From NCBI GenBank assembly GCA_021781475.1, contig JAJXWT010000006.1, positions 1 to 42,335 of the forward strand: a stretch of DNA of 42,335 nt, written 5' to 3'. The translations under genes were made by a program, and so were the position numbers. Positions 8,367-22,732 of the stretch are shown one piece after another. Within the stretch, counting starts at the first letter, position 1. Every line of letters starts with the position of its first letter. Below the pieces are notes generated by a model. It was not told where the DNA came from. It saw only the letters and a list, made by a program, of their open reading frames with translations, and searched no databases. The stretch comes from a bacterium. Its GTDB lineage: Bacteria; Patescibacteriota; Saccharimonadia; Saccharimonadales; Saccharimonadaceae.

Positions 8367-8453
8367 GGCCACGTTTCGCGGCCCCGCAAGCCAGGCAAAT
8401 GAGCATAGCTCAATTGTGGCATTGCCTTGCGGATTGCCACCGGGCAATCCTCA
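8367..8453 (-). repeat. 87-bp triple-hairpin repeat, copy A
   Basis: On the minus strand this begins TGAGGATTGCC and ends AACGTGGCC. It contains three hairpins: GATTGCC/GGCAATC, AATGAGC-like/GCTCATT, and GGCCGCG/CGTGGCC around AAA. The same sequence, with about ten differences, recurs at 17284-17369. Both copies are joined to pieces of tRNA genes. Copy A sits between a 24-base tRNA-Pro 5' fragment and a GCGGTT/AACCGC hairpin. Confidence 0.8.
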
Positions 8454-8477
8454 CGCTATCAGCTGCGCCACACTCCG
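8454..8477 (-). pseudogene. tRNA-Pro fragment (5' 24 bases)
   Basis: The first 24 bases of tRNA-Pro, through the D-arm, are repeated here with one change, together with similar upstream sequence (TGTAC and a TATAAT-like box further up). The rest of the gene is replaced by the 87-bp repeat. It cannot make a tRNA. Confidence 0.8.
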
Positions 8478-17128: not shown

Positions 17129-17206
17129 GGCGAACGTAGCTCAGTTGGTTAGAGCGCTGGTTTGTGGAACCGGAGGTCGTGGGTTCAAGACCCATCGTTC
17201 GCCCCA
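17129..17206 (+). tRNA. tRNA-His (GTG)
   Basis: 78 bases including the extra G at position -1 (17129) that identifies tRNA-His, paired to C73, with encoded CCA. The anticodon arm is CTGGT-TTGTGGA-ACCGG. Its terminator follows at once. A copy of its last 20 bases, fused to a dispersed repeat, lies about 180 bases downstream. Confidence 0.96.
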
Positions 17207-17207
17207 T

Positions 17208-17240
17208 AGAAAATACCCAGGTTTACCCTGGGTATTTTCT
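17208..17240 (+). terminator. terminator of tRNA-His
   Basis: A 14-bp perfect stem, AGAAAATACCCAGG (17208-17221) with CCTGGGTATTTTCT (17227-17240), directly after the tRNA. Confidence 0.8.
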
Positions 17241-17283
17241 ATGGAAGGGTTAGGGTAACTTGAACCCACCCTAGGGTCGTGGG

Positions 17284-17369
17284 TGAGGATTGCCTGTGGC
17301 AATCCGCAAGGCGATGTCACAAATGAGCTATGCTCATTTGACTGACTCGCGGGGTCGCGGAACGTGGCC
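17284..17369 (+). repeat. 86-bp triple-hairpin repeat, copy B
   Basis: Begins TGAGGATTGCC and ends AACGTGGCC, matching the minus strand of 8367-8453 with about ten substitutions and one indel. Hairpins seen: GGATTGCC/GGCAATCC around TGT, CAAATGAGC/GCTCATTTG around TAT (perfect), and a third involving CGCG/CGTG. GGTCGTGGG, as in the tRNA-His T-arm, precedes it, and the tRNA-His 3' end follows. The repeat therefore sits where the T-loop would be. Confidence 0.85.
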
Positions 17370-17389
17370 AAGACCCATCGTTCGCCCCA
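17370..17389 (+). pseudogene. tRNA-His fragment (3' 20 bases)
   Basis: An exact copy of the last 20 bases of tRNA-His including CCA, followed by a matching flank (TAGAAAA) and its own terminator. The 5' part of the gene is absent or unrecognisable, and the 86-bp repeat lies immediately upstream. Confidence 0.85.
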
Positions 17390-17390
17390 T

Positions 17391-17423
17391 AGAAAACACT
17401 CCCCTGTACGGGGAGTGTTTTCT
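17391..17423 (+). terminator. terminator behind the tRNA-His fragment
   Basis: AGAAAACACTCCCC (17391-17404) pairs with GGGGAGTGTTTTCT (17410-17423). It keeps the AGAAAA/TTTTCT base of the tRNA-His terminator but has a different, still fully paired, upper stem. Confidence 0.75.
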
Positions 17424-17440
17424 TGGTATACTGTTGATAT

Positions 17441-17517
17441 GCCCCGGTAGCTCAGTTGGATAGAGCAGAGGACTTCTAAGCCTAAGGTCGCTGGTTCAAT
17501 TCCAGCTCGGGGTACCA
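17441..17517 (+). tRNA. tRNA-Arg (TCT), weak anticodon stem
   Basis: A 77-base cloverleaf with encoded CCA. The acceptor closes as GCCCCGG/TCGGGGT with two G-T pairs, the T-arm is GCTGG-TTCAATT-CCAGC, and the anticodon loop is CTTCTAA (anticodon TCT). The anticodon stem GAGGA/GCCTA has mismatches at both ends (G-A and A-G), leaving three pairs. The 3' end TACCA is also the outer edge of the inverted repeat of the neighbouring recombinase element. Confidence 0.82.
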
Positions 17518-17647
17518 TTTTTGGACAAATTGGAGATTTCGGGCGATTTTCGCCCGTTTTTTCTTGGGTTTTGCGGAGCAAAACCCAAATGTTCTTGGGG
17601 GGAGAAATTTCTAGGGCAGCCGTTGGCTGCACTTTTTTGGATTTTAG
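17513..17647 (+). repeat. left terminal inverted repeat of recombinase element
   Basis: The reverse complement of 19208-19311, identical except for one 31-base insertion here (about 17568-17598). It opens with TACCA, the last five bases of tRNA-Arg(TCT), and includes CGGGCGATTTTCGCCCG followed by a T run. That is a factor-independent terminator which can serve tRNA-Arg. Confidence 0.9.
17538..17563 (+). terminator. terminator inside the inverted repeat
   Basis: The CGGGCGA/TCGCCCG hairpin followed by six T lies 20 bases after tRNA-Arg(TCT). The same hairpin occurs in the right repeat, where it faces the opposite way. Confidence 0.75.
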
Positions 17648-17806
17648 AAATAGGTTCAATCCGTCGATTTCAGCAAAAGCCGACTTTATAGCTCTCGGCT
17701 CGGCACTTTTTGCAATTCTATTGAGGTCAGACGCTTGTTTAATCCAATATCGCATAGGTTCAATCCACGCATTAGCGGCAAGCGTTAGCTTGCTCACTTG
17801 TTCCTC
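17648..17806 (-). pseudogene. continuation of recombinase frame beyond an in-frame TGA
   Basis: Reading the recombinase frame past its TGA (17807-17809) gives EEQVSKLTLAANAWIEPMRY and further plausible residues into the inverted repeat. The ANAWIEPM-type motif is what large serine recombinases usually carry near their C-terminus, so this is the gene's severed tail. The stop could have arisen by one base change from TTA (Leu). The true original stop is not clear. Confidence 0.7.
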
Positions 17807-19060
17807 TCAAGACTTCCTGTCGCTCATCAGTTCGGCTTGCTTGGCTTTGTAGGTTGGTTGGTCAATGTCTTGGTCTAAATAGCTATCTAACAACCGTTTT
17901 AGCTTTTCCTGTAAGTCCGCAATCCGTGTTTGAGCGTTAGCGATGAACACGGCAGAGCTTTGCTCTGCTTTCTTTTCGTCGTTGTTGAGCATGTCGTTGA
18001 GGGCGTTAGCCCACGACTTTGGCAGAGCGTAGCTCTGCAAGATGTCAGATAATTGCACCGTTAAATCTGGCTCGGTTATGGTCGGCTCGGTGCATTTCAC
18101 AGCTTTGTTTTTTCGAGTACACCGATAATATACATACTCATGCACATTACCGTTTTTCTGGTGTTTCACTTTCTTTTCGGCAGTGATTGCCATGTTACAC
18201 ATACCGCATGTCATCAGTCCGCAGAATACCTGTGGAGCAGTTACACCCTTTTGCGGGTGGCAACGTTTGGCGATCACTGCTTGCACTCGGTCAAACAACT
18301 TCTTTTCTATGATAGCTTTGTGCTTTCCCTCATGCACCTCACCGCCGTAGCGAAAATGTCCATAGTAGAACGGATTTGTCAGCATATACTTAATCTGGTC
18401 TTTGCTAAGCGGTTTTTTGCCTTTAGTCATAATACCTTTGCTGTATAGAAAGTCGGCAATATCTTGCAGCGTTTTATCGCCTACAGCGTACAGCTCAAAC
18501 GCTTCAATAACAAACGGCGAACGCCGTTTGTCTACAATGATTGTTTTCTTACGCACGTCGTTTATGTAGCCAATAGGGGCGATACTCGGATAGTGTCCAA
18601 GTCGGACTTTTTGTCGCAACCCTCGTTTTGTGTTCTCGGACAAACTGTCTACATAGTATTTCGATTGGCTAAATGCCATAGACAGCATAAACTTACCTTG
18701 AGAAGTGTTTTCAAACCAAAATGTCGGGAATTTGAGCGATTGCAAACGCATTTGATCGAGTGCGTAGATAATTTGTCCGCCGTCAATCGAGTTACGAGCA
18801 AGACGGTCAGGGTGCCACGACAAAATCCCGTTTGCTTCGCCGTTTTGTATGCGTTTCATCATCTTGTTAAACTTGGGTCGTCCGGGGGTCTTGGCGGACT
18901 TTTTCTCTATGATAACCCCCGCAATCTTGAGGTTATTGTCGGCGGCAAACTTACGCAGCTCCACAATCTGTGCCTCAACAGATAGCACCTGTTTATCTTC
19001 CACATCGGTACTTTTGCGTACATAGATGAAGTACACAATGTTAGCTAGTAGTTCTTGCAT
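17807..19060 (-). CDS. serine recombinase, truncated by in-frame TGA
   Basis: I start at the ATG 19058-19060, preceded by AAGGGGG five bases upstream, giving 417 aa before TGA. The resolvase domain starts at about residue 9 (YFIYVRKSTDVEDKQVLSVE, catalytic Ser in RKST) and includes SWHPDRLARN. The recombinase domain (TLQDIADFLYSKG... LTNPFYYGHFRYG) and zinc ribbon (CGMCNMAITAEKK... YYRCTRKNKAVKC) are intact. The C-terminal coiled coil is cut at SDRKS. Whether the short form is active is unknown. It is related in layout to the recombinase at 6438-8246 but clearly divergent. It lies between inverted repeats and downstream of a nested inverted-repeat site. Confidence 0.88.
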   Translation of the reverse strand: MQELLANIVYFIYVRKSTDVEDKQVLSVEAQIVELRKFAADNNLKIAGVIIEKKSAKTPGRPKFNKMMKRIQNGEANGILSWHPDRLARNSIDGGQIIYALDQMRLQSLKFPTFWFENTSQGKFMLSMAFSQSKYYVDSLSENTKRGLRQKVRLGHYPSIAPIGYINDVRKKTIIVDKRRSPFVIEAFELYAVGDKTLQDIADFLYSKGIMTKGKKPLSKDQIKYMLTNPFYYGHFRYGGEVHEGKHKAIIEKKLFDRVQAVIAKRCHPQKGVTAPQVFCGLMTCGMCNMAITAEKKVKHQKNGNVHEYVYYRCTRKNKAVKCTEPTITEPDLTVQLSDILQSYALPKSWANALNDMLNNDEKKAEQSSAVFIANAQTRIADLQEKLKRLLDSYLDQDIDQPTYKAKQAELMSDRKS

Positions 19061-19078
19061 AGTTGCCCCCTTAAACTT

Positions 19079-19174
19079 AAATGGCTGCCTCGGTTGCATA
19101 CAAACTAGGAAGCCTAGAATTGTCCGAGACAGCCGTTTAAGCTATCAAAAAGACTTCCGAATTAGTTTGTATGC
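19079..19174. promoter_or_regulatory. interleaved inverted repeats upstream of recombinase (att or leader)
   Basis: Two pairs of arms alternate. AAATGGCTGCCTCGG (19079-19093) matches CCGAGACAGCCGTTT (19124-19138) with two mismatches. GCATACAAACTA plus GGAAG (19096-19112) matches CTTCC (19154-19158) and TAGTTTGTATGC (19163-19174). The A-B-A'-B' order cannot form as simple nested hairpins; in RNA it would be a pseudoknot, in DNA two overlapping dyads. It lies just upstream of the recombinase start and is a candidate attachment or autoregulatory site. Confidence 0.6.
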
Positions 19175-19207
19175 TCTTTTATTTTACCAGAAACCCGCCA
19201 TCGGCGG

Positions 19208-19311
19208 CTAAAATCCAAAAAAGTGCAGCCAACGGCTGCCCTAGAAATTTCTCCCCCCAAGAAAAAACGGGCGAAAATCGCCCGAAATCTCCAATTTGTC
19301 CAAAAATGGTA
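19208..19311 (-). repeat. right terminal inverted repeat of recombinase element
   Basis: A 104-bp sequence matching 17513-17647 in reverse complement, lacking that copy's 31-base insertion. Its outer end (GGTA, 19308-19311) is shared with the start of the 184-bp repeat of the next cassette, so the two structures are joined with about five bases in common. Confidence 0.9.
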
Positions 19312-19490
19312 GCCTTTTACGACTACGCTCGTACTTATTTTAGCACGAAGTGCTGAAGCTCAGCCCCGACGCCTAGCGCGGGCAAGCCCGCGCTGCGCCC
19401 CGCCAGAAAAACCGTCCCTTGCATTATTTTTGAGATTTCCCCCGCCGTATTTTTTCTTTTCAGTTGAAAGGGTCGGATTTTTCTGTCGGT
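19307..19490 (+). repeat. 184-bp perfect inverted repeat, left arm
   Basis: Compared base by base with the reverse complement of 22549-22732, I see no difference over 184 bases. Internal hairpins include AGCAC/GTGCT (around GAA) and AGCGCGGGC/GCCCGCGCT with a two-base loop, then an A/T-rich core. No ORF is convincing here. With the right arm it brackets four cargo genes. Confidence 0.92.
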
Positions 19491-19513
19491 GGCGTTGTTT
19501 GTAGCCAAACATG

Positions 19514-20122
19514 CTAACCATTTTGCTGGCGTAAGTGTTTTATCTCTTCGACAAATCTTGAATGCACGGTTGGTATGTCTCCTGACGCATCCACGAATCT
19601 TGTGAGTGCAATCCTGCGTAGAGCGTCAATTGCCAAGTTTGTAGTTTGCGTGTCTAGCTGGTAGCGATGCTTGGCAAATTCTCGTAGATCTTCGCCCTGC
19701 AATCTTTCGCCATCTCTTTTTCCTCGTGCTACTATGCGGTCTACACTGATGTCCATAGGTAACTGCATAGCAATAGTGCCGAGTAGCTTATGGCGGCGTC
19801 GTGAGACTGTTTCATGAAACGATTCAACAGCTTCCGGATGCCGCGGGTATCCATCGATAAGAGCCAGTGTGTCATCGCTATTATCAAGTGGTTCAAAAAT
19901 AGTACCTTCAACAACCCAGTCTGGCAGGGGTGAAGGCGCGTCAGGGGCATTGATATATTGGGAAAACTCGGATGCCTCACCTCCAGTTCTTATGGCACGC
20001 AGACGATTCCCTGCTGATATGTGCTGTACCCTAACACCATCTAAACCGTCAGACGCGAGCCTAGAGCACTGCGTGGATTTTCCTGACCCGACATAACCAT
20101 GGACAACTACTATTTCTGACAT
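19514..20122 (-). CDS. P-loop nucleoside/nucleotide kinase (adenylate-kinase-like)
   Basis: 202 aa from the ATG at 20120-20122. Walker A is GYVGSGKST at residues 9-17, with an adenylate-kinase-type substrate segment (QHISAGNRLRAIR) and the Walker B-like LALIDGYPRHPEAV, which matches the DGYPR(T/N) motif of adenylate kinases. A lid-like region contains RIVARGKRDGERLQGED. The normal LID zinc site is absent, and the substrate loop differs from true Adk, so it probably phosphorylates another nucleotide. It is divergent from the Nudix gene, with 57 bases between the starts. Confidence 0.75.
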   Translation of the reverse strand: MSEIVVVHGYVGSGKSTQCSRLASDGLDGVRVQHISAGNRLRAIRTGGEASEFSQYINAPDAPSPLPDWVVEGTIFEPLDNSDDTLALIDGYPRHPEAVESFHETVSRRRHKLLGTIAMQLPMDISVDRIVARGKRDGERLQGEDLREFAKHRYQLDTQTTNLAIDALRRIALTRFVDASGDIPTVHSRFVEEIKHLRQQNG

Positions 20123-20144
20123 TATCTCTATCTGCTCCAAAACC

Positions 20145-20173
20145 TTGATACTATACTATATTTATGATATAAA
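20145..20173 (+). promoter_or_regulatory. promoter of the Nudix-NTase-GT operon
   Basis: TTGATA (20145-20150), 17 bases, TATAAA (20168-20173), then six bases to the ATG at 20180. The transcript would start at or next to the start codon, so the Nudix gene is probably read from a leaderless mRNA. Confidence 0.65.
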
Positions 20174-20179
20174 ATACAC

Positions 20180-20596
20180 ATGGATTCTGTCAAGAAGGAT
20201 ATAGAGGTTGCGCTACTCGCATTTATCAGTAACGATAAAGTGCTACTAAACCGACGCGCTGACGCAGATAGTGAGATGTGGGAGTTTATTGGTGGTGGAG
20301 TAGAAGATGGTGAAACACCACAAGATGCTATTCAAAGAGAGATACTTGAAGAAGTAGGATATCCAGTGTCGCAAAAAAAAGATAGATTACAGTTTATGGG
20401 AGGCCTGTCGTTTGAAGACCATAGAATTGTCGCAAAAGTCCATTTTTTTACGGCTAAATTTCCTGGCTTTGAATATTTCTCTGATAGTGACGAAACATTT
20501 GTCAAGGACCTTAAACTTTTTAACCTAGATGATGCGCTGAAGTTAACGCTACTTCCAATCACGAGAGAACTTATAGAAAAGCAGTATATACGCTGA
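20180..20596 (+). CDS. Nudix hydrolase
   Basis: 138 aa. The complete Nudix box G-x5-E-x7-R-E-U-x-E-E-x-G-U is present (GGGVEDGETPQDAIQREILE followed by EVGY). The metal-binding glutamates are intact, so it should cleave a nucleoside diphosphate linked to another group, such as a sugar nucleotide, NAD-like molecule or damaged NTP. Substrate specificity cannot be read. It is the first gene of a three-gene operon; the next start is 17 bases away. Confidence 0.9.
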   Translation: MDSVKKDIEVALLAFISNDKVLLNRRADADSEMWEFIGGGVEDGETPQDAIQREILEEVGYPVSQKKDRLQFMGGLSFEDHRIVAKVHFFTAKFPGFEYFSDSDETFVKDLKLFNLDDALKLTLLPITRELIEKQYIR

Positions 20597-20613
20597 CCAA
20601 GAGACTTACAGCC

Positions 20614-21303
20614 ATGCCCACCACACCTAACCAAAGAGATACCGATATACAGATAGCGTCAGAAGTATCTACGCTCGTGGGGACCGAGCGTGACTTTTTC
20701 GTGCTTACCGGCAGTTATTCTATAGATGCATTGACCGGTGCCGATGTAAAACATAACGATATTGATGCCAATGTGTTTACGACGGATATCCCGACCGCAC
20801 TAGGGAGGACGGCAGCATTTCTGCAAACATACGCGAGTGAGGCGGAATTAACAAAGCAAACGGACGATAGACTGGAATATCAGTATCCTCATCAATATGG
20901 CTCAACACAGGTAGAAATGCAATTCGTAAGGTATGAGAGCTTTCTTAAAGACAGTAACGGTACTAACTTCGCTCTTCCAAGTAAAGGCAGTCATGAGGTT
21001 ATTGTCCCGACAGTACAGATGGCGCTTCGGGAGACGAACCAACATGAACATATATTTTCCGTTAAGTCGCTGCCGTTCGCAATTGGAACATGGGCGCTTC
21101 GCATTTCTGGCGTTGCCCTAGATCAAAAACGACCGGTGCGAGAAAGTGATATCAGACACTTTGCATTTCTAGCCGCAATGCCACACGACAGAGCGGCGAC
21201 TTTGAGTGCAATACAGCATCATCCGCAAATGCCAGACGACTATGACGCGGGCGATGTTCTCGATGCATCCTATGAAATATTAGAGAGGAGGCAGGGACTA
21301 TGA
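20614..21303 (+). CDS. nucleotidyltransferase-fold protein
   Basis: 229 aa. The N-terminal region has the minimal nucleotidyltransferase signature: LTGSYSIDALTG (Gly33-Ser34) followed by HNDIDANVF, with Asp49 and Asp51 as the metal-binding pair. This resembles LinB/ANT-type aminoglycoside nucleotidyltransferases and related MNT-fold proteins. The later acidic residue is not certain. It could transfer NMP to a small molecule, protein or RNA. Its stop overlaps the next start by four bases (ATGA), so translation is coupled to the glycosyltransferase-like gene. Confidence 0.65.
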   Translation: MPTTPNQRDTDIQIASEVSTLVGTERDFFVLTGSYSIDALTGADVKHNDIDANVFTTDIPTALGRTAAFLQTYASEAELTKQTDDRLEYQYPHQYGSTQVEMQFVRYESFLKDSNGTNFALPSKGSHEVIVPTVQMALRETNQHEHIFSVKSLPFAIGTWALRISGVALDQKRPVRESDIRHFAFLAAMPHDRAATLSAIQHHPQMPDDYDAGDVLDASYEILERRQGL

Positions 21304-22490
21304 GTGAGCGAACACTGGTAGGAGTCCCATTCTACGAGCAGGAGGGACAAGAGTGCCTTGACATTACGCTTCGCAACATCGACCAATGCCTAGCAAAACT
21401 TGCAATCGACGCCTCCGTGGTTGTTAGAGTAAATGGTCCAGATACCGCATCTGGCGTAACGCCCAGTCTTACGGTAAATCAGAGCGATTACAATGCGGAA
21501 GTTGAGCTATCTTTGGGCGACAAGTTAAGTCAAGCGAGAGCAATGGATGACATTATCGATATAGCGTCAAGTCGTGATATCGATCGTATTTTCCTGACGG
21601 ATGCAGATATATTCCGATTTACAGATTCACTTGACGCCCTGTGGAATAAAGAAGCAATCATCGTCGGCGCTCGATATAGACCATATCCTATAGAGGTAGT
21701 CGAAGCCGAGTTCGGCGAGTTGACTTATGAGGAACGACTGCTGTATCAGATATTTGACGGAGACCAGCTGCCTCAAGTTCGTCATACTTTAGCGAGACAT
21801 GGAATTGATAGGCGTGACTGGGTAAAAGCATCACTGATGTTAGTTGATGTTGAGCGAAGCAAGGGTATGCATGCCGGACAAAATCAGGCAACAGACAGTA
21901 TCATGAACCGTATGATCAGCAAGAATGATATAAAGATTGCGCAAGATGCCTTCTTTATGCATATGGGAAGAGTCGACATGACCGATCATATCAAAGCGCG
22001 TATTCGTCATTTCAAGGCGGCTGATTCAAGAGGTGAACTCGATACCTTCCTGCATAAAGAGGTAAAACTGCCAGACATCGACACAATAGATAGAATCGCT
22101 GAAGAGGTCAGGAGTAATTATGAGCGAGGAGATTTCTACGCAATGCTCTATCTTGCCCGATGCGCGGTACGAGAAAAAGTGAATGATATATGTATGCAAA
22201 TCACTCAAGGCACTTGGGACGAATCGAGCCACCCGGATATCAGTCCTCGTAGTTTGGCGGATGTCTCCAGCTATGAAAATGCGAAGGATGCAGTAGCGAG
22301 GTTCTTTGTCGACGTAGATTGGAATGAAATCAGAGGCTATGCTGATTCCGTTCCGTCAACTACGCAAGAGAGATTGCGTCGACCATTTGACGTGGCTCGT
22401 CATCTTGCAGATTACAACTTGGCAAAACTAGCCATAGGCAGCTTTATGAATAATGAGCCGCTAGGTCATAAGTCTGTCCGCGCGGTTTAG
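21300..22490 (+). CDS. GT-A (family 2-like) glycosyltransferase-like protein
   Basis: 396 aa. The N-terminal 200 residues look like a GT-A fold: opening strand LVGVPFYEQEG, VVVRVNGPD, then FLTDADIFRF with the DxD-type motif Asp101-Ala-Asp103 for the metal and nucleotide-sugar, followed by an ARYRPYP segment. The C-terminal half is helical and soluble, with no membrane anchor. It is coupled to the nucleotidyltransferase-like gene. The closing sequence runs into the hairpin-rich right repeat. The acceptor is unknown. Confidence 0.6.
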   Translation: MSERTLVGVPFYEQEGQECLDITLRNIDQCLAKLAIDASVVVRVNGPDTASGVTPSLTVNQSDYNAEVELSLGDKLSQARAMDDIIDIASSRDIDRIFLTDADIFRFTDSLDALWNKEAIIVGARYRPYPIEVVEAEFGELTYEERLLYQIFDGDQLPQVRHTLARHGIDRRDWVKASLMLVDVERSKGMHAGQNQATDSIMNRMISKNDIKIAQDAFFMHMGRVDMTDHIKARIRHFKAADSRGELDTFLHKEVKLPDIDTIDRIAEEVRSNYERGDFYAMLYLARCAVREKVNDICMQITQGTWDESSHPDISPRSLADVSSYENAKDAVARFFVDVDWNEIRGYADSVPSTTQERLRRPFDVARHLADYNLAKLAIGSFMNNEPLGHKSVRAV

Positions 22491-22548
22491 CGCGGCGGCT
22501 CTGCCGCCCGAGCGAAGCCCCGACGCCTCCACCGCTTGCGGTGGGCGA
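22478..22548 (+). repeat. hairpin module next to the right inverted repeat
   Basis: GGCGGC/GCCGCC around TCT, then AGCCCCGACGCCT, then CCACCGC/GCGGTGG around TT, then GCGAACCGACAG. The same scaffold with other, equally well paired, hairpins occurs in the 184-bp repeat (19340-19415 and its inverse). Together with the right arm it makes an imperfect palindromic unit of about 200 bases. The 373 bases between 22490 and the NlpC/P60 gene hold this, the right arm and a 9-bp hairpin, but no gene. Confidence 0.65.
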
Positions 22549-22732
22549 ACCGACAGAAAAATCCGACCCTTTCAACTGAAAAGAAAAAATACGGCGGGGG
22601 AAATCTCAAAAATAATGCAAGGGACGGTTTTTCTGGCGGGGCGCAGCGCGGGCTTGCCCGCGCTAGGCGTCGGGGCTGAGCTTCAGCACTTCGTGCTAAA
22701 ATAAGTACGAGCGTAGTCGTAAAAGGCTACCA
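22549..22732 (-). repeat. 184-bp perfect inverted repeat, right arm
   Basis: The exact reverse complement of 19307-19490. It ends at 22732 (GGCTACCA on the plus strand), after which the two flanks diverge. Its identity to the left arm implies a recent origin or continuing gene conversion, and makes inversion of the 3.06-kb interior possible. Confidence 0.92.

Follow-up and report, generated by a model that had tools for sequence, protein, structure and literature searches.

What are the two long inverted repeats that bracket four genes in the window, i.e. the whole stretch of 42,335 nucleotides that was analysed? Self-comparison of the window confirmed the first-pass annotation in that 19307-19490 is the exact reverse complement of 22549-22732 over all 184 nt, a spacer of 3,058 nt lying between them; the match breaks off sharply at either edge. 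A genome-wide search found only these two copies of the repeat in the 809-kb genome. The first-pass annotation had missed a second inverted repeat (17510-17647 and 19208-19314), which adjoins the 184-bp pair, flanks the gene of a serine recombinase and begins at the 3' end of the abutting tRNA-Arg(TCT) gene. The two inverted repeats, A/A' and B/B', overlap by 8 bp. The features of the locus are given below, named by the attachment sites that are derived in the following paragraph; a colon marks a junction.

17441-17517, plus strand: tRNA-Arg(TCT), target of integration, intact including the CCA end; provides the left half of attL
17510-17647, plus strand: arm A, which meets the tRNA end at attL; core at about 17513-17517, TACCA
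17807-19099, minus strand: large serine recombinase (Resolvase, Recombinase, Zn ribbon); an in-frame TGA ends the frame early
19208-19314, minus strand: arm A', the inverted counterpart of A on the upstream side of the recombinase, without 31 bp found in A
19208-19490, minus strand: complete attP (B:core:A) in inverted orientation; core 19307-19314
19307-19490, plus strand: arm B, 184 bp; its outer end (to 19356) codes for the recombinase tail of the circle form, ending in FYDYARTYFSTKC and a stop
about 19395-19490: conserved stem-loop in the inner part of arm B
19514-20140, minus strand: cargo, adenylate-kinase-like P-loop kinase (Pfam ADK, E 6.7e-13)
20180-20596, plus strand: cargo, NUDIX hydrolase (Pfam NUDIX, E 1.3e-17)
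20614-21303, plus strand: cargo, possible nucleotidyltransferase (weak; sub-threshold PF10706, E 0.0036)
21300-22490, plus strand: cargo, protein of unknown family without a Pfam match or a PDB sequence match
22549-22732, minus strand: arm B', exact inverted copy of B; core at about 22725-22732, GGCTACCA

The order in the chromosome is tRNA:A, recombinase, A':B, cargo, B':flank. Arm A supplies the tRNA gene with a new terminator and codes on the minus strand for the 3' end of the recombinase. Where the two inverted repeats meet, B, core and A make up a full, inverted attP; the ends are attL (tRNA:A) and attR, the latter formed by the outer end of arm B' and the flank from 22733. Written in one orientation the three junctions tRNA:A, B:A (the middle one, inverted) and B':flank had a core in common, which was the end of the respective tRNA (TACCA, CTCCA, CACCA, GACCA). 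This held for 14 of 14 elements, a set that was later extended; at L100, L125 and L132 the shared stretch is down to a few bases around the discriminator. Three junctions with a common tRNA-end core constitute the pattern of attL, attP and attR, in which attL and attR share their core with the chromosomal target. The flank past attR often opens with a hairpin and a T-run, which we read as the displaced terminator of the tRNA. Judged from its sequence, the element is about 5.2 kb long (about 17513-22732) and inserted at the 3' end of tRNA-Arg(TCT), with the 184-bp inverted repeat as its right part. The unit proposed in the first pass, a four-gene cassette, has to be replaced by this larger element of recombinase and cargo at a tRNA gene.

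Because the window's flank with its NlpC gene is hardly conserved, an empty site was not obtained for its own element and the comparison was made on genomes G009 and G011; nor was one obtained for the element of G007, the flank of which is unique. In the sister species G011 nothing is inserted at tRNA-Val, the empty locus being joined precisely at the core TGGTGG, and the sequence missing there is the whole element from tRNA to attR that G009 carries. By these alignments insertion is site-specific, and the architecture and the mobility of the element are well supported. Locus L064 (7636-14952) is a record of successive insertions: two tandem elements lie behind one tRNA-Leu, the newer of which displaced the older from the tRNA.

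Homologues of the 184-bp arm were present in 32 genomes out of a set made up of the own genome and its relatives, mostly as inward-facing pairs around unrelated genes at a spacing of 0.8-8 kb, which excludes a chance origin of the repeat. Absence of the repeats around cassettes elsewhere had been named in the first pass as a refutation; when looked for, the repeats did recur, but they enclose other, unrelated cargo. The identity of the arms was often 97-100% within a pair and mostly 70-90% between elements. Many pairs are adjoined by a recombinase module of about 1.5 kb with its own arms. A search of genome contigs with a recombinase alignment yielded at least 565 confirmed relatives, out of which 80 were kept for locus analysis, nearly all titled as Patescibacteria groups. 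The A/A' repeat was found at 67 of the 80 loci, with the B/B' repeat as well at 27, and at 69 an antisense tRNA lies directly downstream of the recombinase, which faces it. At a strict cut-off (E <= 1e-100) the recombinase was detected in 63 out of 287 genomes sampled from the phylum. Going by this homology, the element is widely spread within the phylum. The literature searched, a limited library of papers, held no published description of it, nor, as the first-pass annotation had stated, of an element with such unusual cargo. Apparently, this is a small mobile element at tRNA gene ends, widespread but undescribed in ultrasmall Patescibacteria.

The recombinase was also seen on contigs titled Acinetobacter, Syntrophaceae and Deltaproteobacteria (L066, L088, L120), which are either mis-binned or mark a spread beyond the phylum. 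At L155 (8598-15241) of a single-contig genome two elements occupy neighbouring tRNA genes of one cluster and face each other. A viral or plasmid source was considered and rejected: no relative was confirmed among viral contigs (IMG/VR), and the matches listed from plasmid collections cover only 1-2% of the query, located at the tRNA. Phage recombinases among the matches listed were about 26% identical or less.

We consider it very likely that each 184-bp repeat represents the B half of an attP, which is present in duplicate in an integrative element of a serine recombinase. Extrapolated from the integrated form, the circle should hold two full attP copies (B:core:A), inverted and one at each end of the recombinase gene. 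One of them would be bound and recombined with the 3' end of the tRNA as attB, the core taking in the discriminator base and the next C, and arm A would replace the displaced terminator. If integration used the attP behind the recombinase, the gene would face the tRNA and lose its tail; the other attP would leave the recombinase facing away from the tRNA with its native tail. One orientation prevails at most loci. The few contigs that point to use of the second attP include three (L085, L129, L130) with the order tRNA:A'-recombinase that end at or before the end of the repeat, and their arrangement may be an assembly choice. The case of L134 is firmer: here a second tRNA meets the element exactly at A', and as the identity between the arms is only about 81%, a repeat collapse is unlikely. 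These loci suggest that both attP copies are able to work. As an observation in its own right, the recombinase module of L134 (9584-11557) stands alone between two facing tRNA ends, each joined exactly at the core.

Three other explanations of the repeats were weighed against a duplicated attP. The first is a phase-variable invertible cassette, where 19491-22548 is flipped by the recombinase or RecA and thereby gains a different neighbourhood; inversion between the 184-bp repeats was among the possibilities raised by the first-pass annotation. A serine recombinase gene adjacent to perfect inverted repeats would fit, as would a cargo that varies in direction between elements. Yet the repeats recur with unrelated cargo as half-attP sequences at tRNA insertions, an empty site exists (G011), and according to PMC3783163 known serine integrases do not recombine attP in other site pairings; we regard flipping as improbable. 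An ordinary transposon with long terminal inverted repeats and a transposase acting in trans is a most improbable reading, since the exact empty site in G011 largely refutes it. Inverted ends and variable cargo would be expected of a transposon, but insertion was seen only at tRNA ends with a matching core, the element has a serine recombinase, its boundaries are not a pair of inverted ends, and the middle attP copy would go unexplained. That the assembler made the repeat is hardly credible either, although the window is from a draft of 30 contigs and many contigs elsewhere stop at such repeats; in many relatives they stop just outside A', as expected where repeats halt short-read assembly. 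The same structure exists in the single-contig genomes G007, G009, G203, G326 and G354, and arm lengths and reading frames are conserved across the phylum. Both repeats lie beside a tRNA in G203, G326 and G354, thus the plan is not an artefact, which the first-pass annotation had named as a possible refutation.

The recombinase matched the Pfam families Resolvase (E 5.5e-22), Recombinase (1.6e-17) and Zn ribbon (2e-8) in that order. The best NCBIfam match was CcrB with 132.9 bits, which does not reach the curated cut-off of 900 for this recombinase. The attP sits within the 3' end of the recombinase's own gene, arm A being the 3' coding end. In 26 of the 27 elements printed, reading through attP into B adds a short tail that is conserved as roughly FYxxARTYF; in the one exception, L064, it is hidden by the arm boundary chosen, and the attP and attR lines hold the sequence. 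In the integrated state the frame continues into the tRNA and yields unrelated tRNA-antisense peptides. The older recombinase of the tandem in L064 ends with ARTHFSTKCEK, derived from its neighbour's B arm. Conservation of the frame across the core points to selection on the tail of the circle form. A native-type tail was predicted by AlphaFold to be a helix, at a pTM of 0.46 that is too low to place it on the protein. As read from these frames, integration swaps the conserved tail for a tRNA-antisense peptide. The exchange would most likely be a lock that blocks use of the spare attP by the integrated recombinase, an integration-dependent switch. We infer this effect of the tail by analogy with integration-dependent immunity of mycobacteriophages, where attP also lies inside a gene and integration changes the C-terminus of the protein (PMC9635641). 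In the phages that gene encodes a repressor bearing a degradation tag; in the present element it encodes the recombinase, the tail of which is conserved.

In the window's own recombinase an in-frame TGA at 17807-17809 replaces a Leu codon of the relatives and removes the C-terminal region, with homology extending to about 17444; most relatives are uninterrupted. Together with the 31 bp absent from A' and the perfect B arms, the TGA indicates that this copy is probably inactive and only recently dead, unless the stop is a sequencing error. The median identity of B arms was 100% at loci with an intact recombinase (n=27) and 90.6% where it was broken or missing (n=13; Mann-Whitney p=6e-5), a correlation among loci that are unevenly sampled and not independent. 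Exceptions to the trend were the window, L041 and L043; in the latter two the arms are perfect and the stretch read contains no recombinase. The data suggest that the arms are homogenised during the mobile phase and drift apart later. In mobile copies the arms would be held identical, probably by recombination or repair between the inverted copies. The first-pass notion of a young or gene-converted structure applies in so far as the repeat is real and young or homogenised; it does not apply to the bracketed four genes as the unit.

Of the 12 pairs predicted for the stem-loop of the inner B arm, 7 show at least one compensatory change. Hairpins with a G-rich loop are a conserved feature of inner B arms in Saccharibacteria and Parcubacteria, e.g. 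at 19395-19490 of the window and in L109, L111, L116 and L132; by eye, parcubacterial arms have hairpins of a different build with similar G-rich loops. The G-rich motif was dismissed as a genome-wide signal, since the 13 genomes examined from the genus contained only 7 matches, most of which fall on known arms.

Target recognition probably involves the T-loop. A GGTTC-type box is located 25 nt before the core in attP (25 of 27 elements); in the tRNA, the GGTTC of the T-loop precedes the core by 21 nt (23 of 27). In the Listeria integrase the zinc-domain motif is 5 bp closer to the centre in attB than in attP (PMC3783163); the corresponding shift here is 4 bp. The T-loop box is thus a putative binding motif, and its universality would account for the use of so many tRNA genes by one family.

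The cargo varies by element and lies in either direction in different elements. Altogether 101 cargo proteins matched 142 Pfam families, none of them present in more than three members. The cargo is arbitrary and the element works as a gene-delivery vehicle. Neither replication genes nor transfer genes were recognised in the cargo, nor phage genes in the element. In the window, Pfam bears out the kinase and the NUDIX gene of the first pass; its nucleotidyltransferase matched nothing but an aminoglycoside adenylyltransferase model below threshold, and its glycosyltransferase call lacks a Pfam match. The idea of a defence island was abandoned, the cargo not being mainly defence and the PADLOC tallies consisting mostly of methyltransferases. 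At L027, L029, L043 and L047 cargo modules with B-type arms have no recombinase nearby, and several adjoin palindromic tRNA-type terminators.

Why should attP be doubled? Any answer has to be inferred, and those considered are of limited probability. Tentatively, the inverted attP pair may make a two-part circle, from which double exchange at two sites could install the recombinase half and the cargo half independently; the recombinase would lock itself, its C-terminal tail indicating whether it is integrated. Pointers to such a new class of mobile element are the recombinase alone at L134 and the cargo without recombinase in the stretch read at L027, L029 and L043; if true, it would rank as a major way for Patescibacteria to gain genes. 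A second scheme, compatible with a duplicated attP, is amplification in the manner of the yeast 2-micron plasmid, a circle halved by inverted repeats that hold the recombinase's own sites. As the circle replicates, recombination of one attP copy with its inverted partner would lead to many copies of the circle. The general plan is alike and the arms stay identical, but a replication gene was not recognised, attP with attP is not a known reaction of serine integrases, and the recombinase faces one way at most loci, all of which makes amplification unlikely. Distinctly unlikely, finally, is that imported single-stranded DNA gains a duplex attP by folding at the inverted repeats, repair of the stem keeping the arms identical. 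Saccharibacteria are naturally transformable, and conservation of com genes extends across the CPR (PMC10633639); the perfect pairing of the arms and a cargo without recognised transfer genes would also agree. Double-strand exchange on a folded strand, however, would leave hairpin ends.

Returning to the integrative element with a duplicated attP, it shares with serine-integrase phages and islands a large serine recombinase, site-specific insertion, attL and attR, and a zinc-domain box that is shifted between attP and attB. It differs from them by a second, inverted full attP inside the element, by the position of attP in the recombinase's own 3' end, by many tRNA targets and by the absence of recognised phage genes. 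SCC with Ccr is likewise a small vehicle with a serine recombinase and variable cargo, and CcrB is the best NCBIfam match, far below the cut-off. The target of SCC is rlmH, in contrast to the tRNA end used here, and the inner inverted attP and the tail exchange set the element apart. Unlike the yeast 2-micron plasmid it relies on a serine instead of a tyrosine recombinase, integrates into the chromosome and has no replication or partition genes that we could see. With integron gene cassettes it has in common a non-recurring cargo on a common vehicle; it integrates as a unit at a tRNA gene, without an IntI tyrosine integrase or an attC array.

With their tiny genomes, Patescibacteria form a very large bacterial branch that is poorly understood. 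The element would explain gene islands at their tRNA genes as well as many contig breaks in assemblies. Its compact serine integrase that accepts many tRNA ends, with a possible integration switch in the enzyme's own gene, may serve as a basis for vectors in organisms for which few genetic tools exist. A minor observation concerns other tRNA genes of the window: the 3' end of tRNA-His has a 31-bp copy (97%) 183 bp downstream (17186-17216 and 17369-17399), and the stretch that precedes the second copy, 17283-17369, matches the inverted 8367-8454 beside tRNA-Pro (88 bp, 89%). This looks like a small tRNA-associated element or a remnant.
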